Shown here one piece after another: positions 19,627-35,420 of a stretch of DNA of 64,000 nt. The stretch's first letter is position 1. The number at the start of each line of letters is the position of its first letter. The stretch comes from Ornithinimicrobium sp. CNJ-824. GTDB taxonomy: Bacteria; Actinomycetota; Actinomycetes; Actinomycetales; Dermatophilaceae. Where the stretch lies: assembly GCF_001942405.1 (NCBI RefSeq), contig NZ_MKKA01000011.1, positions 124,001 through 188,000 on the forward strand, written 5' to 3'. Both the position numbers and the translations under genes were made by a program. The notes below the pieces were generated by a model. That model was not told the origin of the DNA. It saw only the letters and a program-made list of their open reading frames with translations, and did no database searches.

Positions 19627-20210
19627 GCGTCGCCCTCCCGGCCGTCCGACCCGTCGGCGGGGGCGTCCTGCTGGGCCGAGGCGCCCCGCGTGCCGATCGA
19701 CAGCCACGGGCCGACCTCGGTCCCCTCGGGGGCTCCCTCGGGCAGCTGCGGGTCGAGCCCCTGCTCGGCCCGCGACTTGGCCAGCACGTTGCGGTGCCAC
19801 AGCGACAACGCCTGCAGGATCAGGCCGACGCCGATCTGCAGCTTGGCCTTGGGCTGCTCCTGGCGGGCGACGATCTGCTCGACCGCGAGCACGAGGTGGC
19901 CGGCGGCGATCCCGGCCTTGACGAGGTTCACCCCGAGGGTGATGTCGTTGCAGCCGTCCAGCCGCACGCGCATGTCCTCGGGGACCGAGTCGGCGATCTG
20001 CCACTGGCCAAAGACGCGCATGATGTCGAACTGCTCGCCCTGGACGACCTTGACGAAGAGCTTCTGGTCGCGGGCCTCGAAGGCCACGTCCCCCTCCTTG
20101 TCCAGGTCGGGGTTCATCTGCAGGTCCTGCAGGGCGTCGAGGACCCGGCCGCTGAGGGGGCGGTCCTGCGGCGGCGGGGGAAAGTTGGGCAGCGAGGTGG
20201 GATCCGTCAT
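19623..20210 (-). CDS. YbjN-domain-like hypothetical protein
   Basis: 195-aa cytoplasmic protein, no signal or membrane helix. The middle part (DGDVAFEARDQKLFVKVVQGEQFDIMRVFGQW and then DITLGVNLVKAGIAAGHLVLAVEQIVA) has the alpha/beta pattern of the YbjN/type-III-chaperone-like superfamily common in actinobacteria; the first 25 residues are Pro-rich and the last 40 are acidic and low in complexity. Function unknown. It shares a divergent promoter region (20211-20294) with glgX and overlaps the enoyl-CoA hydratase start. Confidence 0.6.
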   Translation of the reverse strand: MTDPTSLPNFPPPPQDRPLSGRVLDALQDLQMNPDLDKEGDVAFEARDQKLFVKVVQGEQFDIMRVFGQWQIADSVPEDMRVRLDGCNDITLGVNLVKAGIAAGHLVLAVEQIVARQEQPKAKLQIGVGLILQALSLWHRNVLAKSRAEQGLDPQLPEGAPEGTEVGPWLSIGTRGASAQQDAPADGSDGREGDA

Positions 20211-20294
20211 GGCCCCAACGTACCTCCCGCCCGGTCGGCCCCCTGCGGTGTGGGTGCGCGGGCAGCGGGCCCGGCGGACCTACCCTTGGCCACC

Positions 20295-22427
20295 ATGGCC
20301 CCACCCCTCCGCCCCCGCCGCAGCACGGACACCCCGCCCCCTCCCGGGGTCACCAGGACGGCGGCCGGGACCGAGGTCGCCGTCGTCGCGGCCCACGCCA
20401 CCGCGGTCGAGCTGTGCCTCTTCGACGGGGCGCACGAGCGCCGCATACCCCTGCGGCACCGCGCCCACGGCACCTGGTGGGACGAGGTCCCCGAGCTGAC
20501 CCCCGGCACCCGCTACGGCTTCCGCGTCGAGGGCCCGTGGGACCCCGACGCCGGCCACCGGCACAACCCGGCCAAGCTCCTCCTGGACCCCTACGGGCAC
20601 GCCGTCGAGGGCTGGGTGCGCTGGGGGCCCGAGGTCTACGGGCACGTGGTCGACACCTCCGGCCACGCCTCCCCCGGGACCCGGGACCCCCGGGACTCGG
20701 CGCCGTTCGTCCCCCGCTCCGTCGTCCTCGACCACGACTTCGACTGGGGCGACGACGCCCTGCCGGCCGTGCCGTGGTCGGAGACGGTGGTCTACGAGGC
20801 GCACGTGCGCGGGCTGACGATGCGGCACCCGGAGGTGCCCGCCCACCTGCAGGGGACGTATGCCGCGCTGGGACACCCTGCGGTCGTGGAGCACCTGCTG
20901 TCGCTGGGGGTGACCACGCTCGAGCTGCTCCCCGTCCACGCCTACGTCTCCGAACCGACCCTGGTCCGGCAGGGGCGGCACAACTACTGGGGCTACAACA
21001 GCCTGGGGTTCTTCGCCCCGCACGCCGGCTACGCGGCCGCCAACGACCCGCAGGGCGTGGCGGACGAGCTGCGCACGGCCGTGCGGACCCTGCACGCCGC
21101 CGGGATCGAGGTCCTGCTCGACGTGGTCTACAACCACACCGCCGAGCAGGCCTCCGCCTCCGGACCGACGCTGTCCTGGCGCGGCCTGGACAACGCCGGC
21201 TACTACCGGCTGGACGGGCGTGGGCGCGACATCGACGTGACCGGCACCGGCAACACGATGAACGTGACCGAGCCCGCGGTCGTGCGGATGATCCTGGACT
21301 CCCTGCGGCACTGGGTCGAGCACTACCACGTCGACGGCTTCCGCTTCGACCTGGCGCCGGCGCTGGGGCGCGGCCGCGACGACGGCTACGACCGCGACCA
21401 CCCCTTCCTCGTGGCGCTGCGCGCCGACCCCGTCCTGTCCCGGGTCAAGCTCGTCGCCGAGCCGTGGGACGTCGGGGTCCACGGCTGGCGCACCGGTCAG
21501 TTCCCCCCGCCGTTCGCCGAGTGGAACGACCGCTACCGCGACACGGTCCGCAGCTTCTGGCTCGACGACGTCCGGCGGCGCCTGCACGGCGAGCCCGGGC
21601 ACGGCATCCGCGAGCTGGCCACGCGTCTGGCCGGGTCGGCCGACATGTTCGCCGCCGGCGACCGGGGCCCGGTCGCGTCGGTGAACCTCGTCGCCGCGCA
21701 CGACGGGTTCACCCTCGCCGACCTGACGGCCTACGACCAGAAGCACAACTACGCCAACGGCGAGGACAACCGGGACGGGCACGGCGACAACCGGTCGTGG
21801 AACCACGGGGTGGAGGGGTCGACCACGGACGCCACCGTGCTCGCCGCGCGCAACCGCTCGATCCGCAACCTGCTGGCCACCCTCGTCCTGAGCGCCGGCG
21901 TGCCCATGCTGGTGGCCGGCGACGAGATGGGCCGCACCCAGGAGGGCAACAACAACGCCTACAACCAGGACAACCAGATCTCCTGGGTCCGCTGGGACCT
22001 GCGCCCGTGGCAGCAGGAGCTCCTCGCCGACGCCCGCGACCTGCTCGCGCTGCGCCGCGAGCTGGCGCTCGTGCGCACGCCCCGCTTCCCCACCCACGAG
22101 CCCGTCCCGGGGCGGACCCGCCTGCGGTGGTTCACCGAGACCGGGCACGTCGTCGACGACGAGGGGTGGCTCGACCCGTGGCGACGCACCGTGGTGGCGG
22201 TGCTCGACACCCTCCACGCCGAGGACGGCGCGGAGCGGCAGGCCGTGGCGCTGGTCCTGCACGGCGGGCTCGACCGCGTCGACGTCGTGGCCCCCGTGGT
22301 GGAGGGGGTGCCAGGCTGGCGGCGGCGCTGGACCAGCGAGCCGGACCCGGCCGGCCCGGGGTCGGTAGACCCCGGGCAGGACCTGTCCGTCGGCGCCACC
22401 ACCGTCACGGTGCTCGTCGGCGCCTGA
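20295..22427 (+). CDS. glgX: Glycogen debranching protein GlgX
   Basis: 710-aa isoamylase-type GH13 enzyme cleaving alpha-1,6 branches of limit glycogen. N-terminal CBM48 (VELCLFDGAHERRIPL to RYGFRVEGPWDPDAGHRHNPAKLLLDPY), then the barrel with LLPVHAYV, LDVVYNHTAE, nucleophile Asp in VDGFRFDLAPAL, acid Glu in KLVAEPWDVG and third Asp in LVAAHDGFTLADLTAY. The ATG at 20295 gives the usual GlgX N-terminus; upstream codons belong to a chance frame. Convergent with glgP, 9 nt apart, so both breakdown enzymes end at the same spot. Confidence 0.95.
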   Translation: MAPPLRPRRSTDTPPPPGVTRTAAGTEVAVVAAHATAVELCLFDGAHERRIPLRHRAHGTWWDEVPELTPGTRYGFRVEGPWDPDAGHRHNPAKLLLDPYGHAVEGWVRWGPEVYGHVVDTSGHASPGTRDPRDSAPFVPRSVVLDHDFDWGDDALPAVPWSETVVYEAHVRGLTMRHPEVPAHLQGTYAALGHPAVVEHLLSLGVTTLELLPVHAYVSEPTLVRQGRHNYWGYNSLGFFAPHAGYAAANDPQGVADELRTAVRTLHAAGIEVLLDVVYNHTAEQASASGPTLSWRGLDNAGYYRLDGRGRDIDVTGTGNTMNVTEPAVVRMILDSLRHWVEHYHVDGFRFDLAPALGRGRDDGYDRDHPFLVALRADPVLSRVKLVAEPWDVGVHGWRTGQFPPPFAEWNDRYRDTVRSFWLDDVRRRLHGEPGHGIRELATRLAGSADMFAAGDRGPVASVNLVAAHDGFTLADLTAYDQKHNYANGEDNRDGHGDNRSWNHGVEGSTTDATVLAARNRSIRNLLATLVLSAGVPMLVAGDEMGRTQEGNNNAYNQDNQISWVRWDLRPWQQELLADARDLLALRRELALVRTPRFPTHEPVPGRTRLRWFTETGHVVDDEGWLDPWRRTVVAVLDTLHAEDGAERQAVALVLHGGLDRVDVVAPVVEGVPGWRRRWTSEPDPAGPGSVDPGQDLSVGATTVTVLVGA

Positions 22428-22436
22428 CCGGCCCGC

Positions 22437-25028
22437 TCAGGGCAGCGTGACCAGCCCCAGCTCGGCGGCGCCGGCCAGCTGCCCGTGGCGCGGGAGCACC
22501 CGCACCGTCCAGCCCAGCGCACCGGTGCGCGCCAGCCGCATCCGGCCGTCGAAGCGGTGCCGGCCCTCCTCGTAGGACTGGGTCGGCTCGAGGTCGACGT
22601 ACTCCAGGTCGGTCAGCGTGTCCTCGGCGTTGGCCCGGCCGTAGGCCATCTGGACCCGCACCTGGTGCGGGTCCAGGTCGCCGAGGCCGACGAAGGCGTG
22701 CACCGAGATCTCGTCGCCGATCTGCGGGGCGTCCGAGAGACCGTCGGCGTCGACGTGGTCGATCCGCACCTGCGGCCAGCTGGCGTGCACCTGCTCGACG
22801 TAGGCGGCCAGGTCGCGGGCGCCGGCGAAGTCGTCGGCGGCGGCGGACCAGGCGGCGTGGGCGGCCGGCCAGTAGTACTGCTCGGTGTAGTCCCGCACCA
22901 TCCGGTCGGCCAGGACCTTCGGGCCCAGGGTGGACAGGGTGTGGCTGACCATCTCCAGCCACCGCTGCGGCAGGCCGTCCTCGTCGCGGTCGTAGAAGGT
23001 CGGCACGACCGTCCGCTCGAGCAGCTCGTACAGGGCTGCCGACTCGAGGTCGTCCCGTCGGTCGGGGTCCTCGACGCCGTCGGCGGTGGGGATGGCCCAG
23101 CCGTTCTGGCCGTCGTACCACTCGTCCCACCACCCGTCGAGGATGGACAGGTTGAGCGCGCCGTTGAGGGCGGCCTTCATCCCGGAGGTGCCGCAGGCCT
23201 CGAACGGACGCAGCGGGTTGTTCAGCCACACGTCGCAGCCGGGGTACAGCTGCTGGGCCATGGCGATGTCGTAGTTGGGCAGGTAGAGGATCTTGCCGCG
23301 GACCTCGGGGTCGTCGGTGAAGCGCACCATCTGCTGGATGAGCGCCTTGCCGGTGTCGTCGGCCGGGTGCGACTTGCCCGCGATGAGCAGCTGCACCGGG
23401 CGCTCGGGGTCGTTGAGCAGCTTCTTGAGCCGCTCCGGGTCGCGCAGCATGAGGGTCAGGCGCTTGTACGTCGCGCCGCGCCGGGCGAAGCCGATCGTCA
23501 GCGCGTCGGGGTCGAGGACGTCCTCGGTCCAGCCGAGCTCGGCCTCGGTGACGCCACGGTCGCGCAGGGAGGTCTTCAGCCGGGCCCGGGCGTCGTCGAT
23601 CAGCTGGGCCCGCAGCTCCCGCTTGGTGCGCCAGAACGCGTCGATCGGCACCTCGTGGATGCGGGTGAAGACCGACCGGGCGGCGGTCTCCGGCCCGAGG
23701 TGGGCCTTGGCCAGGTCGTAGAGCTTGCGGTCGACCCAGGTGCCGGCGTGCACCCCGTTGGTGACCGAGCCGATCGGCACCTCGTCCAGGTCGAAGCCCG
23801 GCCACAGCCCGGAGAACATCTCCCGGCTCACCGCGCCGTGCAGGCGGGAGACCCCGTTGACCCGCTGGCCCAGGCGCATGCCCATGACCGCCATGTTGAA
23901 CCTCGAGCGGTCCCCGCCCTCGTAGTCCTCGGCCCCCAGGGCCAGCAGCCGGTCGAGGGGGACGCCGTCGAGCTGGCAGCCGTCCTCGGCGAAGTGGGCC
24001 CGGATGGCGTCCACGTCGAACCGGTCGATGCCGGCCGGCACGGGGGTGTGCGTGGTGAAGACGGTCCCGGCGCGCACCGCCCGCAGCGCCTCGTCGAAGG
24101 TCAGCCCCTCGCGGGAGACCAGCTCGCTGATCCGCTCCACGCCCTGGAACCCGGCGTGGCCCTCGTTGGTGTGGTAGACGGTCGGCTCCGGGGCGCCGGT
24201 GATCCGGGAGTAGGCGCGCAACGCCCGCACCCCGCCGATGCCCAGCAGCATCTCCTGCTCCAGCCGCTGGTCGCCGCCGCCGCCGTAGAGGCGGTTGGTG
24301 ACCTCGCGCCGGGCGGCGTCGTTGGTCTCCACGTCCGAGTCGAGCAGCAGGAGCGGCACCCGCCCGACCTGCGCACGCCATACCCGCGCGTCCAGGTGGC
24401 CGCCCTGCGGCATCGCCAGCCGCACGACGACGGGGGTGCCGTCCTCCTCGCGCAGCAGCGACAGCGGCAGGTCGTCGGGGTCGAGGACGGGGTAGGACTC
24501 CTGCTGCCAGCCCTCGGCGTTGAACCGCTGGGCGAAGTAGCCGGAGGTGTAGAACAGCCCCACGCCCACGATCGGGATGCCCTGGTCGCTGGCCGCCTTG
24601 AGGTGGTCGCCGGCCAGGATCCCCAGGCCGCCGGAGTACTGCGGCAGCACCGAGGTGATCCCGAACTCCGGGGAGAAGTAGGCGATCGACCGCAGCTCGC
24701 GGTCCCCGTGCTCGGCGGTGCGGCCCGCGCCCTCCTGCTGGTACCACCGGGGCTTGGTCAGGTAGCGCTCCAGGTCCGCCGCGGCCTCGTGCACCCGGGT
24801 GACGAACGACTCGTCGGCCGCCAGCCGGTCCATGTCCGCGGTCCGCAGCGAGGAGAGCACCGCCACCGGGTCGTGCCCGCTGGCCTGCCACAGCTCGGGG
24901 TCGATGCTGGCGAAGATGTCGCGGGTCGGGGGGTGCCAGGACCAGCGCAGGTTGAGCGCCAGGTCGTGGAGCGGGGCAAGGGTCTGCGGGAGGACGGTGC
25001 GTACGTGCAGCCGACGGATAGCCTTCAC
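22437..25028 (-). CDS. glgP: Glycogen/alpha-glucan phosphorylase
   Basis: 863-aa phosphorylase releasing glucose 1-phosphate from glucan ends; 863 aa is also the length I recall for the mycobacterial homologue. N-terminal DUF3417-type domain (RRLHVRTVLPQTLAPL, LNLRWSWHPPTRDIF). FRPEFGI-like SPEFGITSVLPQYSGGLGILAGD, then the PLP-lysine block FEACGTSGMKAALNGALNLSI. The GTG at 25028 (VKAIRRLHV) is the family start; an in-frame ATG at 25058 would add ten residues. Divergent from glgE across a 135-nt gap, so synthesis and breakdown genes may be co-regulated. Confidence 0.95.
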   Translation of the reverse strand: MKAIRRLHVRTVLPQTLAPLHDLALNLRWSWHPPTRDIFASIDPELWQASGHDPVAVLSSLRTADMDRLAADESFVTRVHEAAADLERYLTKPRWYQQEGAGRTAEHGDRELRSIAYFSPEFGITSVLPQYSGGLGILAGDHLKAASDQGIPIVGVGLFYTSGYFAQRFNAEGWQQESYPVLDPDDLPLSLLREEDGTPVVVRLAMPQGGHLDARVWRAQVGRVPLLLLDSDVETNDAARREVTNRLYGGGGDQRLEQEMLLGIGGVRALRAYSRITGAPEPTVYHTNEGHAGFQGVERISELVSREGLTFDEALRAVRAGTVFTTHTPVPAGIDRFDVDAIRAHFAEDGCQLDGVPLDRLLALGAEDYEGGDRSRFNMAVMGMRLGQRVNGVSRLHGAVSREMFSGLWPGFDLDEVPIGSVTNGVHAGTWVDRKLYDLAKAHLGPETAARSVFTRIHEVPIDAFWRTKRELRAQLIDDARARLKTSLRDRGVTEAELGWTEDVLDPDALTIGFARRGATYKRLTLMLRDPERLKKLLNDPERPVQLLIAGKSHPADDTGKALIQQMVRFTDDPEVRGKILYLPNYDIAMAQQLYPGCDVWLNNPLRPFEACGTSGMKAALNGALNLSILDGWWDEWYDGQNGWAIPTADGVEDPDRRDDLESAALYELLERTVVPTFYDRDEDGLPQRWLEMVSHTLSTLGPKVLADRMVRDYTEQYYWPAAHAAWSAAADDFAGARDLAAYVEQVHASWPQVRIDHVDADGLSDAPQIGDEISVHAFVGLGDLDPHQVRVQMAYGRANAEDTLTDLEYVDLEPTQSYEEGRHRFDGRMRLARTGALGWTVRVLPRHGQLAGAAELGLVTLP

Positions 25029-25163
25029 ACCGGTCGAGGATAGGGGACGGGGCTGCAACTTCTTGCACCGTGCTGGTGACGGCCTCGACGGACGGGCCGG
25101 GCGGCGGCGCGAGCGCCGACCTCAGGGTGACCGGCCCACCCGATCCCCGGTAGCGTGAGGCGC
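25029..25163. promoter_or_regulatory. Divergent intergenic region between glgP and glgE
   Basis: 135 nt between two divergent starts, the only regulatory space for both the glgP gene and the glgE-treS-mak/glgB-pgm unit. It contains the only lower-GC patch nearby (GCAACTTCTTGCACC around 25054-25068, with a short dyad GCAA-CTTC-TTGC). No clear sigma-70 boxes were recognised. Confidence 0.4.
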
Positions 25164-27241
25164 GTGACCGAGGACTCGACCACGCCCCCCGCCCAGCCCG
25201 ACGCGACCCGATCGACCGATCCGTCCTGGCCCTCTTCGGCCAGCAGCCGGTCGGCCGCATCCCCGTCCTGGACGTCGAGCCCGTGGTCGACGCCGGCCGC
25301 CGGCCGACCCGCTCGGTGGTGGGTGAGCTGTTCCCCCTGTCCGCCACCGTGCTGCGCGAGGGCCACGACGCCGTCAACGCCACCGCCGTCCTCGTCGACC
25401 CCGACGACCGGGAGCACCACGTGCCGATGGTGCAGACCAACCCCGGTCTGTCGCACTGGGAGACGGTCGTGCACGCGGACCAGGAGGGGGTGTGGAGCTT
25501 CCGCGTGGAGGGGTGGTCCGACCCCTACGGGACCTGGGTGCACGACGGGACGATCAAGGTCGAGGCCGGCGTCGACGTCGAGCTGATGCTCGAGGAGGGG
25601 GCCCGGGTGCTCGAGCGGGCCCTCGACGAGGTCGACCGGCCCCAGGAGGACGCCGACCTGCTCGACCGCGCCATCGGCACGCTGCGGTCCAGCTCGCTCG
25701 ACCCCGCCCGACGGCTGGCCGCCGGCACCGACGAGCAGGTGCAGGAGGTGCTCCGGCGCGCCCCGCTGCGCGACTACGTCAGCGCCAGCCCGAGCTACAC
25801 CTGGTGGGTCGAGCGCCCCCTGGCGCTGACCGGGGCGTGGTACGAGATCTTCCCGCGCTCCGAGGGGGCCACCCAGGACCCGCGGACCGGGCTGTGGACC
25901 ACCGGCACCTTCGAGACCGCCGCCCGCCGGCTGCCGGCCATCGCCGAGATGGGCTTCGACGTGGTCTACCTCACGCCGGTGCACCCCATCGGGTCCACCA
26001 ACCGCAAGGGCCGCAACAACAGCCTGACGGCCGAGGAGCACGACCCGGGCTCCCCCTACGCCATCGGCGCCGCCGAGGGTGGGCACGACGCCATCCACCC
26101 CGACCTGGGGGACTTCGAGGACTTCGACGCCTTCGTCGAGGCCGCCCGGGAGCAGGGCCTGCAGGTCGCCCTCGACCTGGCGCTGCAGGCCTCCCCGGAC
26201 CATCCGTGGGCGAGCGAGCACCCGGAGTTCTTCACCACCCGGGCCGACGGGACGATCGCCTACGCGGAGAACCCGCCGAAGAAGTACCAGGACATCTACC
26301 CGCTCAACTTCGACAACGCCCCCGCGACGATCTACGCCGAGGTCCGGCGGGTCGTTCAGGTGTGGATCGACCACGGCGTGAAGATCTTCCGGGTGGACAA
26401 CCCGCACACCAAGCCGGTGGAGTTCTGGCAGTGGCTGATCGCCGACGTGGCGGTGGACCACCCGGAGGTCATCTGGCTGGCCGAGGCCTTCACCAAGCCC
26501 CGGATGATGCAGATCCTGGCCAAGGTCGGGTTCCAGCAGTCCTACACCTACTACGCCTGGCGCAACACGGCCGCCGAGCTGCGGGAGTACGTCACCGAGC
26601 TGGCGACCGAGACGGCGCCCTACATGCGGCCCTCGTTCTGGCCGACGACGCACGACATCCTCACCCCCTACATGCAGACGGGCGGGGCGACGGCCCACCT
26701 GGTCCGCTCGGCGCTGGCGGCCACCCTGGTGCCCACCTACGGCATCTACGCCGGGTTCGAGCACGTCGAGGACCGGCCGCGGCCGGGGGCCGAGGAGCAC
26801 CTGGACAACGAGAAGTACGAGTTCAAGGACCGTCGCTGGGGCGAGGACGTCCCGGGGCGCACGGACCTCACCGGGTGGCTCACCACGCTCAACCGGATCC
26901 GCCGGGAGCACCCGTCGCTGCACTGGTTGCGCAACATCACCTTCCACGGCGCCGACGACGAGAACGTCCTCGCCTTCTCCAAGCACGGCGGCGGGGCCGC
27001 CGACGGCTCGGCGCAGGACACCGTGCTCGTCGTGGCCAACCTCGACCCGCACAACGTCCGGGGCACCCGGCTGCACCTGGACCTGCCGGCGCTCGGACTG
27101 GGCCTGGGCTGGGGGCGTACGTTCACCGCCCACGACCTGGTCACCGACCAGCGCTGGACCTGGGACTCCGAGCCGTGGGTGGTGCTGGGCCCCGGCTACG
27201 GCCACGAGCCGGTGCACATCATCCACGTGACGACGGACTGA
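25164..27241 (+). CDS. glgE: Alpha-1,4-glucan:maltose-1-phosphate maltosyltransferase (5' end frameshifted)
   Basis: GH13 subfamily-3 enzyme that extends linear alpha-1,4-glucan with maltose from maltose 1-phosphate. The intact frame (25283-27241, 652 aa) has the N-domain (SVVGELFPLSATVLREGHD), GAWYEIFPRSEG, TPVHPIGSTNRKGRNNSL, nucleophile Asp in KIFRVDNPHTKPVEFW, acid Glu in VIWLAEAFTKPRMM and the third Asp in WPTTHDILTPYM. The conserved N-terminus VLALFGQQPVGRIPVLDVEPVV lies in the same frame just upstream but has no start codon; the GTG at 25164 is in another frame, so a single-base deletion between about 25195 and 25225 is likely. Start of the GlgE-pathway operon; treS follows after 9 nt. 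Confidence 0.92.
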
Positions 27242-27250
27242 GGACACCTC

Positions 27251-29007
<1,757 letters not shown>

Positions 29008-29008
<1 letters not shown>

Positions 29009-32000
29009 TGGCCACCCTGTCCCCCGACTTCGACGACTTCCTCCCCGGGTGGATCGCCACCCAGCGCTGGTACCGCGGCACCGGCCGCACCCCGCTGCTG
29101 CGCCGCATCGGGGGCATCCGGTGGGAGGACCCGCTCGGCGAGGTCGGGCTCGAGGACCACCTCCTGGTCGACGAGTCGGGTCCCGAGCCGGTCGTCTACC
29201 AGGTCCCGCTGTCCTACCGGGCCGAGCCGGTGGCCTTCCTGGCCCACGCCCTCGTGGCCACCGCGGAGCACGCCGAGCTGGGCACCCGCTACGTCTACGA
29301 CGCCGCCCACGACCCCGTCTTCGCCCAGACGCTGCTCCAGCACGTCTGGTCGGAGCACGACGTGCCCTCCGCGCGGGCCCGACGGCTCGTCGCCGGCGGG
29401 ACCGCCTCGACCCTGCGCGCCAGCCGGGTGCTGACCGGTGAGCAGTCCAACACCTCGATCGTCGTCGACCCGCACGAGGGCCGTCGCCCCGTGCTGGTCA
29501 AGCTCTTCCGCGTGCTCCAGGCCGGGGAGAACCCCGACGTGACGGTGTGCGCCGCCGTCGCCCGGACCGGCGACCGCACCGTCCCGGGGCCGCTGGGCTA
29601 CGTCGAGGGTCGCTGGAACGACACCGACGGGCAGGAGGTCAGCGGCCACCTGGCCGTGGCCTCGGAGTTCATCGCCGGAGGGCGGGACGGGTGGGAGCTC
29701 GCGCTGGCCGCCGCCCGCTCGGGGGAGGACCTGTCCACCCCCGCGCATGAGCTGGGCGAGGCGACCGCCCGGGTGCACACCGCGCTCGCGGCGGCGTTCG
29801 GCACCGAGGACGCCGAGGCGCAGCGGGAGACGCTGGTCGCGCGCCTGCGGCAGCGGGCCCGGACCGCCTTCGCCGAGGTGGACGAGCTGGCCGTCCACCG
29901 CGAGGACGTGGACCGGACCTACGACGCGCTGGCGGACGTCCCGCTGCCGCCGCTGCAGCGCATCCACGGCGACCTCCACCTCGGCCAGGTGCTCCACGTC
30001 CCCGGGCGCGGCTGGGTGCTGCTCGACTTCGAGGGTGAGCCGCTGCGACCCATGGCCGAGCGCACCGCCCCCGACCTGGCCCTGCGCGACGTGGCCGGGA
30101 TGCTCCGCAGCATCGACTACGCCGCCGCGACCGTCGACCAGGAGGGCGTCGACGCCACCGGCTGGGCCCAGGAGGCCCGCGCCGCCTACCTCCAGGGGTA
30201 TGCCGCCGCCGCGGACGTCGACCTCGACGACCCCCAGGTGCGCACGCTGCTCGACGCCCTCGAGCTGGACAAGGCGCTCTACGAGGTCGTGTACGAGGCC
30301 CGCAACCGGCCCTCCTGGGTGCCGATCCCGGTCGAGGCGGTCCAGCGGCTGGTCTCCGGCGGTCGGGCCGGCCGGCACGAGGCTCCGACCGGCCCGGTGG
30401 CGGCGGCCGACGGTGGCGACGGGAGCTCCGACGAGCGTCCGGGCCGCCACCGCGCGGACCAGGGTCCCTCGGCCGCCGACTTCGGCGTGGCCGGGACGTC
30501 CGCCGAGGACGGTGCCGCGTCGCTGACCGAGGAGTCCGGCGAGGTGCGCAGCGTCGCGCTCCCGGAGGAGTATGCCGCCACCCCCGGTCCCGGCGAGCCC
30601 GACCCGGCCGCCGGCGGGGGGTCGGACGACCGGCCCGAGGACCTCCTCGAGGACGCCGGAGACCTCTCCCCGCTCTACGCAGGGGCCGGAGCGGGCGCCG
30701 ACCAGGACGCGACCGCCGAGGGCGACGAGCAGGCCTCCCCGCACGTGCCCGCCAGCGGCGGCCGTCCGCATGCCCCCGTCCCTCCGCCGGAGGAGATGGT
30801 GGACGCCTTCCGCCCGACCCCGGCGGGGTCCCGGCCCGCCAGCGGCGGGCTTGCCCACGCCCCGGTGCCTCCGCCCGCCGGCATGACCATCACGACGGAC
30901 CTGCCCGCCGGGCCCCGCCAGGGCGGCGAGGAGCCACCGCCGTCCGTGGACGTCGCGCAGCCGGCGGCCGCCCGGGAGTACCCGCCGGCCAGCGGCACCG
31001 CGCCCCGGTCCGCCGAGGGGGTCCTGCTGGATCCCGTGGTCAGCCACCGGCAGGCCTGGGAGGAGGCCAGCAGCTCCCCCGCGGTCGTGACCGGCCGGGT
31101 CGTGCGGGACGACGGTCCCGCCGGAGGGGCCGGGGTCCCCGGGGCCGGCGCCGCCGCGGACGCCCCCGGGACGGTGCGGCGCACCCCCCTGCCGCCGCCG
31201 CAGGAGCCGCCGGCACCGCATACCCGTCCCCTCGACCTGGACGAGGCCACGGACGTCGTGCACGGCCTGCACCGCAGTCCCCACCACGTCCTGGGTCCCC
31301 ACGCCCACGAGGGCCACGTCACCGTGCGCACGCTGCGTCCCGGGGCCCAGGCGGTCTCGGTGCTCCTCGCCGACGGCCGGGAGCTGCCGATGACCCACGA
31401 GACCGGCGGCATCTGGGCGGCGGTGGTCCAGCAGGAGCAGGTCCCGGCCTACCGGCTGGCGGTCACCCGGGAGGGCGAGCGCCGGATCGTCGACGAGTCC
31501 TACCGGCACGCGCCCATGCTCGGCGAGACCGACCTGCACCTGCTCGGCGAGGGCCGGCACGAGGAGCTGTGGCGGGTGCTCGGCTCGCACGTGGTCACCC
31601 GGCGCGACGAGATGGGCGAGGTCACCGGCACCCACTTCGCCGTCTGGGCCCCCAACGCGCTGGCCGTGCACGTCGTCGGGGACTTCAACGGCTGGGACGG
31701 CAGCACCCACGCGCTGCGCGTCCACGAGGACGTCGGCGTCTGGGAGCTCTTCGTGCCCGGCGTGGGCGCGGGTGCCCACTACAAGTACGACATCACCGGC
31801 CCCGACGGCACCCGTCGGGCCAAGGCCGACCCGATGGCCCGCGCGACCGAGGTGCCGCCCTTCAACGACTCGGTCGTCACCGTCTCCACCCACCGGTGGA
31901 ACGACGACGCCTGGATGGAGCGCCGCGCCCGGGAGGACATCCACCTGGGCCCGATGAGCATCTACGAGGTGCACCTGGGGTCCTGGCGGCAGGGGCTGAG

Positions 32001-33756
32001 CTACGAGCAGCTCGCCGACCAGCTCGTCCCCTACGTCAGCGAGATGGGCTTCACCCACGTCGAGCTGATGCCGGTCATGCAGCACCCCTACGGTCCCTCG
32101 TGGGGCTACCACGTCACCGGCTACTTCGCGGCGGACAGCCGGTTCGGTCACGAGGACGGCCTGCGCCACCTCATCGACCGGCTCCACCAGGTCGGGGTCG
32201 GGGTCATCCTCGACTGGGTGCCCGGGCACTTCGCCACCGACCCGTGGGCGCTGGCCCGTTTCGACGGGACGCCGATCTACGAGCACCCGGACCCCCGCAA
32301 GGGCTGGCACCCGGAGTGGGGCTCCTACATCTTCGACTACGGGCGCCCCCAGGTGCGCAACTTCCTCGTCGCCAACGCCTGCTACTGGCTCGAGGAGTTC
32401 CACGCCGACGGCCTGCGGGTCGACGGCGTCGCCTCGATGCTCTACCTGGACTACTCCCGGGAGGGCGACCAGTGGATCCCCAACCGCTACGGCGGCCGGG
32501 AGAACCTCGAGGCGGTAGAGCTGCTGCAGGAGACCAACGCCACCGCCTACCGCCGAAACCCCGGCGTCGTGATGATCGCCGAGGAGTCCACCTCCTGGCC
32601 CGGGGTCACCGCGTCGACCGAGGAGGGCGGCCTGGGCTTCGGCTTCAAGTGGAACATGGGGTGGATGCACGACACCCTCGGCTACCTGGCCGAGCTGCCC
32701 TACGCCCGGGCGCACCACCACCATGCGCTGACGTTCTCGCTCGTCTACGCCTACAGCGAGAAGTACATCCTGCCGATCAGCCACGACGAGGTCGTGCACG
32801 GCAAGGGGTCGCTGCTGCGCAAGATGGCCGGCGACTCCTGGCAGAAGTTCGCCACCACCCGGGCCTTCCTGGCCTACCAGTGGAGCCACCCGGGCAAGCA
32901 GCTGCTCTTCATGGGCAGCGAGTTCGCCCAGGACCGGGAGTGGGCCGACGGGGGCACCCTGTCGTGGGAGCTCACCGAGCGGCCCGACCACGGCGGTGTG
33001 CAGCGGCTCGTGCGCGACCTGAACCGGCTCTACGACGAGCTGCCGGCCCTGTGGCAGATCGACCACCACGAGGACGGCTTCGCCTGGCTGGACGCCAACG
33101 ACGCCCACCGCAACCTCTACTCCTACCTGCGGTGGGGCAACGAGGGACCGGACGGGCTGCGGCCGGTCGTGGCCGTGGTCGTGAACTTCAGCGGGGTGCC
33201 CCAGCACCAGGTGCACGTCGGCCTGCCCTACGGCGGCCGGTGGCGCGAGGTGCTCAACACCGACGCCGAGGTCTACGGCGGGTCCGGCCAGGGCAACATG
33301 GGTGCCGTCCAGGCCTACGACGAGCCGCACCAGCGCCAGCCGTGGTCGGCCCTGGTCACGGTGCCGCCGATGGGTGCGATCTGGCTGGTGCCCGACCCGG
33401 TCGAGGCCGAGGAGGAGCCGCCCGCCCAGATCGAGCAGGCCGACGAGGAGCCGCCCGCCACGGCCGCGGTCTCGGAGGTGTCCGGCCTCGAGGCGGTCGA
33501 GGACGGCTCACGGACCACCGACGAGCCGATCCCCACGGCCACCACGGACACCGGGACCCCGGGCGCCGTGGACGACGGGACGACCGACGCCCCGGCAGCG
33601 GAGCCGGACGGGGACGACGCGACGCCGGACACCCGGCTCCGGGAGCCCGTGGACCCGGGCTACCCCGGGGAGGTCCCCGACACCGACACCGCCGACGACG
33701 CCGACGCCGACGCCGACGCCGACGGCACGGCATACCCCGACACCCGGCAGAGCTGA
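29008..33756 (+). CDS. Maltokinase-glycogen branching enzyme fusion (Mak-GlgB)
   Basis: One uninterrupted 1582-codon frame. Residues 1-450: maltokinase (Pep2/Mak), N-terminal cap FLPGWIATQRWYRG, catalytic RIHGDLHLGQVL (His320, Asp322) and VLLDFEGEP. Residues about 450-740: disordered linker rich in Pro, Ala, Gly and acidic residues, with a duplicated PASGG-HAPVPPP element. Residues about 740-1465: complete GlgB with two CBM48-type modules (HHVLGPHAHEG; FAVWAPNALAVHVVGDFNGW) and GH13 barrel, nucleophile Asp1139 (LRVDGVASMLYLDYSR), acid Glu1192 (VMIAEESTSW), Asp1260 (ILPISHDEVVHGKGSL). Residues 1466-1582: acidic tail. ATG 29008 follows GAGGAGG with 7 nt spacing. No stop or frame change separates the two enzymes, and codon periodicity looks continuous through the linker. 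Confidence 0.93.
30748..30885 (+). repeat. Duplicated PASGG-HAPVPPP element in the Mak-GlgB linker
   Basis: Two copies of a 17-residue element start at codons 581 and 610: PASGGRPHAPVPPPEEM and PASGGLAHAPVPPPAGM, separated by 12 residues. The DNA copies differ at several third positions, so it is an old duplication rather than a recent slippage. Confidence 0.75.
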
Positions 33757-33768
33757 GGAGCGAGCACG

Positions 33769-35420
<1,652 letters not shown>

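Follow-up and report, generated by a model that had tools for sequence, protein, structure and literature searches.

The stretch of DNA analyzed here, hereafter the window, comprises 64,000 nucleotides of contig NZ_MKKA01000011.1 of Ornithinimicrobium sp. CNJ-824, a draft assembly of 62 contigs that is 92.5% complete, and on its forward strand it carries a gene (29008..33756) that joins a maltokinase (Mak) to a glycogen branching enzyme (GlgB). The frame runs through 1582 codons without a stop, and the closest in-frame stop upstream is at 28123. Its ATG at 29008 shares one base with the stop codon of the preceding treS, and a GAGGAGG-type site lies directly 5' of this ATG. Third-position GC stays between 0.91 and 1.00 in every 100-codon block of the frame, including those of the linker and the tail. 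Domain, profile and PDB sequence matches divide the 1582-residue product into a Mak part (residues 1-449; 29008..30354), a low-complexity and probably disordered linker (residues 450-745; 30355..31242), a GlgB part (residues 746-1463; 31243..33396) and a tail that is acidic in composition (residues 1464-1582; 33397..33753), all on the forward strand. An earlier note, made from the sequence alone, had described one continuous frame for these four parts, and the 1582 codons, the domains and the PDB matches bear it out; the linker and tail exist, but the lengths given for them, 290 and 117 residues, were not exact, the values being 296 and 119.

Both enzymes are complete in sequence. Pfam recognizes Mak_N_cap (PF18085) at residues 15-102 with 90 bits against a cut-off of 22, then GlgB_N at 746-832, CBM48 at 858-944, the alpha-amylase domain that corresponds to the GH13 barrel and, as the C-terminal beta domain, alpha-amylase_C at 1360-1462, while the matches to PDB sequences are to maltokinase over residues 14-450 and to GlgB over 746-1462. 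The Mak part scores 191-210 bits over residues 14-448 against the solved maltokinases 4u94, 5jy7 and 4o7o, compared with just 77 bits over 133-442 against the glucosamine kinase 6hwj, and its HGD motif at 320-322 is invariant among 23 aligned Maks. The GlgB part passes two equivalog models (NF003811, 926 bits, cut-off 741; TIGR01515, 862 bits, cut-off 464) and has Asp1139, Glu1192 and Asp1260, which we take to be its catalytic residues; these three, as well as His320 and Asp322 of the kinase, stand exactly where the earlier note had placed them. Since this is the sole full GlgB found in the 92.5% of the genome that is available, the other matches being partial and of 34-35% identity, the GlgB part of the fusion probably serves in the cell.

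The stretch between the two enzymes and the one after them are of a different character. Disorder-promoting residues make up 84% of the linker and 89% of the tail, versus 65% of the Mak part and 58% of the GlgB part, and the charge-hydropathy rule puts the tail clearly, and the linker barely, on the disordered side. When residues 430-855 are modelled with AlphaFold2, the region of about 460-710 has an average pLDDT of 32-49, versus 83-97 for GlgB_N (from about 730), with a single short predicted helix in the linker near 676-687; the alignment behind the model was shallow (21 rows, none with a linker this long), and its low pLDDT is weak support for disorder. Together with the composition and the charge-hydropathy rule, it leaves the linker probably disordered, as had been supposed. 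A unit of the form PASGGxxHAPVPPP occurs twice in this linker, at residues ~581-623 (near 30748-30876).

The surroundings of the fusion are those of a GlgE pathway operon, with glgE, treS, mak and glgB together and the order glgE-treS-mak/glgB-pgm. The maltosyltransferase gene glgE (25283..27241, forward strand, the 5' coordinate being given without a start-codon call) is recognized by the Pfam domains GlgE_dom_N_S and GLGE_C, and the trehalose synthase gene treS (27251..29008, forward strand) by Pfam and by TIGR02456 (894 bits, cut-off 678). Both are separate genes of the same operon, the separate treS being as the earlier note had said. Downstream, the alpha-phosphoglucomutase gene pgm (33769..35420, forward strand) is likewise separate: its ATG at 33769 lies 12 nt past the fusion stop and in the same frame, and the stop at 33754-33756 keeps GlgB and Pgm apart. 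The pgm frame has one break at ~34165-34190, so that it is matched as two separate ORFs, and at E 1e-100 the Pgm model has no other match in the genome; the break either stems from an error in the draft or reflects a genuine loss. Upstream of the operon are a glgP-like ORF on the opposite strand (22437-25058; domains DUF3417 and phosphorylase) and an ORF with matches to CBM48 and an amylase domain (19794-22427). Elsewhere in the genome, contig C60 seems to encode both GlgC (468 bits, cut-off 425) and an enzyme of the GlgA_Coryne/GlgM type (519 bits, cut-off 302).

The fusion of Mak with GlgB is neither unique nor an error. Mapping of the domain pair across taxa, which the earlier note had proposed, finds it in one frame at 64 of the 140 Mak loci that were read from the order Actinomycetales. 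These 140 loci comprise 93 from the window's own family, Dermatophilaceae, and 47 from other families of the order. Within the family, the maltokinase cap is present in 96 of 99 genomes, three of which (G036, G085 and G091) were left out of the loci read; 40 of the 93 loci have Mak and GlgB in one frame and 53 do not, and in 41 of those 53 no more than 150 nt separate the Mak frame from the start of the GlgB match. The sample covers 52 genera, many of them through a single genome: in 21 every locus is fused, in 28 none is, and three are mixed. The 24 of 47 loci fused in the other families do not amount to a rate, these loci having been picked partly for long frames. Among the 140, the loci counted as Mak alone include four that run off their contig (G006, G071, G086 and G219) and another whose Mak is broken (G089), and in a further one (G137) a GlgB in a different frame overlaps a long Mak frame, its sister G204 being fused. 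In Ornithinimicrobium itself, 26 of 31 genomes are fused; the other five junctions fall at contig ends (G291, G302 and G303) or amid several broken frames (G296 and G304). Several operon genes are frameshifted in the last two (loci L245 and L262), in G304 all five that were looked for, and both are perhaps error-prone assemblies.

A database scan extends this picture to named organisms, of which we consider the best 80 loci, some ending close to the gene. Twenty of these are fused, mainly in Arthrobacter and its relatives Pseudarthrobacter and Paenarthrobacter, the others being from Sinomonas, Pseudokineococcus, Leekyejoonella and two Ornithinimicrobium; the loci of Streptomyces, Cellulomonas and Williamsia are unfused. 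All 20 of the fused named loci have treS upstream, and 19 have glgE as well. Outside the order, the matches listed for 148 genomes drawn from the class include no frame longer than 1151 aa, where a fusion would need ~1185, frame length serving here as a proxy.

The explanation that we favor, with a moderate degree of confidence, is that the gene encodes a bifunctional enzyme of the GlgE pathway, which arose by loss of a stop between adjacent mak and glgB genes and which tethers Mak to branching. In such a scenario the mak stop codon would have been lost between tightly packed operon genes and the old gap would have become the linker. Ribosome-binding-like sites precede 22 of 56 in-frame ATGs in the linkers of the fused ORFs, versus 40 of 1246 inside the two enzymes (p = 1e-16, a value inflated by related rows, the direction being clear), so that many linkers look as if they still hold the old glgB start. 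Since glgB abuts mak in unfused relatives and such start-like sites have been retained, stop loss would be the simplest origin of the fusion.

As for function, the Mak part would phosphorylate maltose supplied by TreS, yielding maltose 1-phosphate, the separate GlgE would string this into a linear glucan, and the GlgB part would branch the glucan and, by binding it, hold Mak near the growing particle, at a ratio of Mak to branching that the fusion would fix at 1:1. Tying the maker of maltose 1-phosphate to the supply of branches could level supply and demand. That both parts are active, that a single polypeptide is made, that the tether is useful and that GlgB keeps Mak on the glucan in this fixed ratio we infer from the sequences. 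According to the available passages of a 2024 review (PMC11046441), loss of GlgE lets maltose 1-phosphate rise to toxic levels and loss of GlgB curtails GlgE, which could be a reason for linking Mak with GlgB.

Several observations weigh against this explanation. The Mak part reaches 182 bits over residues 10-449 with TIGR02457, 'putative maltokinase' (TreS C-terminal), well short of the cut-off of 375; the name of the model points to the TreS-joined type of maltokinase. Close relatives have separate mak and glgB, so the fusion is not essential to the pathway, and in G296, a congener assembled as a single contig, the two lie in different frames, its treS and glgB being themselves broken. Linker length is loose, from 20 to 310 residues overall, and this speaks against a precisely set geometry. 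When 133 of the 140 loci are placed on a Mak tree, the fused state requires 15 changes, ten of them forced by starred branches (the tree was made with FastTree, which gave long-branch warnings, and gains are not told apart from losses). Finally, a free GlgB could still be made from an internal start at 22 of the 64 fused loci. The alternatives considered next are not exclusive of the bifunctional enzyme, which mostly concerns what the protein is.

The least of these alternatives is an assembly or sequencing artefact joining two genes. The draft state of the assembly, with its 62 contigs, and the single break in its pgm frame might raise the suspicion, but the same fusion is present in 25 other congeners, several of them single-contig genomes, and also outside Ornithinimicrobium, for example on a complete Arthrobacter chromosome (L286). 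With such recurrence across many genomes we reject the artefact, which has next to no probability left; the fusion is real, and error as its cause is excluded. A far more serious rival is that the fusion is neutral, the stops between abutting genes of a GC-rich operon being lost and regained by drift without the fused form being any better. It is serious because the fused state changes so often, as the Mak tree indicates, and the fusion of pgm, treated below, likewise changes four times inside Ornithinimicrobium, three of these being forced. The neighboring operon genes abut, and the linkers, with their wide range of lengths, have by eye little sequence in common between genera. Drift alone, however, would not obviously lead to the uniformity of whole groups that is seen in the family (bearing in mind how many of its genera are one genome), nor to the motifs ASGGxPHAPVxPP and AWxxAxxSxxVVT, which are kept against a variable background in the 17 linkers of the long-linker clade of Ornithinimicrobium; 11 of these 17 contain HAPVPPP. 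The tails are also relevant here, as a motif RPEL[S/T] occurs in the tails of 12 of 63 fused GlgBs versus none of 61 unfused ones. We therefore consider a purely neutral fusion a real but lesser possibility. The twelve tails (loci L069, L072, L085, L088, L091, L095, L096, L101-L103, L166 and L170) belong to seven genera of the family, none being from the 31 Ornithinimicrobium genomes, and the motif is a possible docking site. A different stretch, around HPFVxEGGQPIDH, is common to the GlgB tails of G047, G290, G294 and G296 (L263, L260, L252 and L245), and the tail in the window is without it.

Alternatively, one gene might yield two products, the full-length Mak-GlgB and a free GlgB made from a retained glgB start in the linker. 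The enrichment of ribosome sites before linker ATGs over those within the domains, at 22 of the 64 fused loci, speaks for this, as does one sampled genus (f6 g58) in which all six loci read have such a start 23-26 residues before GlgB. In the linkers of this genus (for example L107, L108, L111 and L112) GGAAGGT stands ~8 bases 5' of the ATG, a likely retained internal start, and free GlgB may still be made there. An ATG with a site of this type also lies 156-177 residues before GlgB in six Ornithinimicrobium with a triple fusion, and under a looser rule 14 of 26 Ornithinimicrobium linkers have an ATG, GTG or TTG behind a strong site, the window linker having two such GTGs. On the other hand, neither of the two ATGs in the window linker passes the ribosome-site test, the kinship of the rows inflates the p-value, and GAGGAG is also an ordinary pair of Glu codons. 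We think two products rather unlikely, and the fusion may be more committed in the window than in f6 g58.

The earlier note had gone further and imagined a scaffolded particle, in which the long linker would let TreS and GlgE dock and bring the four enzymes together. All four genes do share one operon; moreover, the conserved motif of the Ornithinimicrobium linkers, with its short predicted helix, and the RPEL[S/T] tails, found in fused enzymes of other genera only, are each possible docking sites. Nevertheless, the long linker as a scaffolding device is not supported: among the 64 fused loci the linkers range from 20 to 307 residues with a median of 57, so that half of them have 57 residues or fewer. 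Within the Ornithinimicrobium loci read, linkers of 35-118 residues characterize one deep clade and those of 224-310 the other, and both are fused, which weakens the case for any special role of the long linker.

Recruitment of TreS fared no better. In the parts available of the study of the mycobacterial complex (PMC6509496), Arg312, Pro503 and Arg534 of Mycobacterium smegmatis TreS are among the contacts by which Pep2 docks, and the complex is perturbed when Glu replaces the M. tuberculosis residue that corresponds to Arg312. At these three positions the TreS of the window reads Glu, Asp and Ser, so we reject docking through the mycobacterial residues; the two salt bridges that these parts of the study describe cannot form here as they do in mycobacteria. 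Arg312 is found in none of the 58 TreS rows from fused loci and in 19 of the 77 from unfused ones. Of these 19, 14 are named loci that come for the most part from other orders (Streptomyces, Streptosporangium, Nonomuraea, Williamsia and Skermania among them), and five belong to this order (families f10, f14 and f19). As the loss of Arg312 is common to fused and unfused members of the order, it appears to go with most of the order and not to be a consequence of the fusion. The known mycobacterial mode of docking cannot be assumed, then, and a new TreS interface is possible, but the scaffolded particle as a whole seems to us distinctly improbable.

In some Ornithinimicrobium species fusion has extended to one more gene, pgm being joined to give Mak-GlgB-Pgm. 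The pgm domain at this locus lies within a frame of more than 2000 codons in 11 of the 31 genomes, and Mak, GlgB and Pgm are in one frame at the loci read in G080, G285, G286, G293, G298, G299, G300, G307, G308, G309 and G310 (L264, L235, L243 and L250 plus seven other loci), four of which (G285, G299, G300 and G309) are single-contig genomes. From Mak to the end, the triple fusions measure 1991-2072 residues. The three of these 11 that were scanned (G080, G299 and G310) hold all four Pgm domains, with 886-903 bits for TIGR01132 against a cut-off of 778. Between the GlgB and Pgm matches there is an ATG in none of the 11, and in six there is no ATG, GTG or TTG at all; since a GTG follows GGAGG in G293, and GTGs with shorter sites occur in G299 and G310, a free Pgm is possible in a few of these genomes. 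In the other 20 of the 31 Ornithinimicrobium genomes pgm is separate. On a GlgB tree with rows for 29 of the 31, the triple state needs four changes, three of them forced, from which it would follow that the triple fusion arose, or was lost, more than once. Outside Ornithinimicrobium, the matches listed for 186 genomes of the family include no pgm frame longer than 2000, and seven long pgm frames of 1079-1501 aa (in G021, G028, G063, G067, G069, G082 and G094) contain no GlgB match; others were listed beyond these seven, for example those of G363 and G365, both of 1348 aa. The proximity of the two genes is nonetheless widespread: in 47 of 90 family genomes outside Ornithinimicrobium no more than 300 nt lie between the GlgB frame and the start of the Pgm match, the commonest distance being 5 nt. 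Given the usual roles of these enzymes, Pgm would supply glucose 1-phosphate for GlgC and GlgM, or take glucose 1-phosphate from GlgP.

With regard to known systems, the closest model is NF011293/PRK14705 of NCBIfam, '1,4-alpha-glucan branching enzyme', with 1224 positions. The window GlgB aligns at positions 500-1222, and the ~500 positions ahead of it equal the size of a Mak; two stretches of the window protein match the model, with a total of 1368 bits against a curated cut-off of 2376. The name of the model is without mention of a kinase, and the linker and tail of the window protein are longer. Judging from its length and the score, which suggest a Mak front, this model probably already describes a Mak-GlgB fusion under the name of GlgB. 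The fusions of Arthrobacter, Pseudarthrobacter, Paenarthrobacter, Sinomonas, Pseudokineococcus and Leekyejoonella have the same two enzymes in the same order as the window, with linkers of 21-105 residues compared with its 296.

A maltokinase joined to another enzyme of the GlgE pathway is also found in the TreS-Mak (TreS-Pep2) proteins of Pseudomonas, Rubrobacter and Chlamydiae (PMC2885305 and PMC11046441, in the parts of each that are available). There, however, the partner is TreS, on the N-terminal side and acting in the step before Mak, whereas in the window it is GlgB, on the C-terminal side and two steps later. The mycobacterial TreS:Pep2 complex (PDB 5JY7), as far as the available parts of PMC6509496 describe it, consists of homologous Mak and TreS, but it is non-covalent and its three named TreS interface residues are those not conserved in the window. 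The available passages of the 2024 review (PMC11046441) present the maltokinase of the pathway as either free or joined to TreS, and regard it as unknown whether GlgE and GlgB touch. A search of the open-access literature found no paper that discusses a Mak-GlgB or a GlgB-Pgm fusion; as far as such a search reaches, what is new is the extent of the fusion, its repeated switching between joined and separate, and the addition of phosphoglucomutase as a third partner.

Considering these fusions together, we lean slightly toward the view that the glycogen operon of Ornithinimicrobium is collapsing stepwise into one polyenzyme, with Pgm joined in about a third of the species and with TreS exchanged for GlgB as the partner of Mak. 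If this is true, one chain of ~2000 residues would make maltose 1-phosphate, branch the glucan and interconvert glucose 1-phosphate and glucose 6-phosphate. In a practical sense, the name of the PRK14705 model suggests that Mak-GlgB proteins may be labelled 'branching enzyme' only, in which case the maltokinase would be scored as missing. More generally, much of one order has this kinase joined to the branching enzyme, and relatives repeatedly differ in whether the two are joined or split. This amounts to a natural experiment: comparing species that have the joined and the split form could reveal what tethering does to the structure of the glucan and to the level of maltose 1-phosphate.

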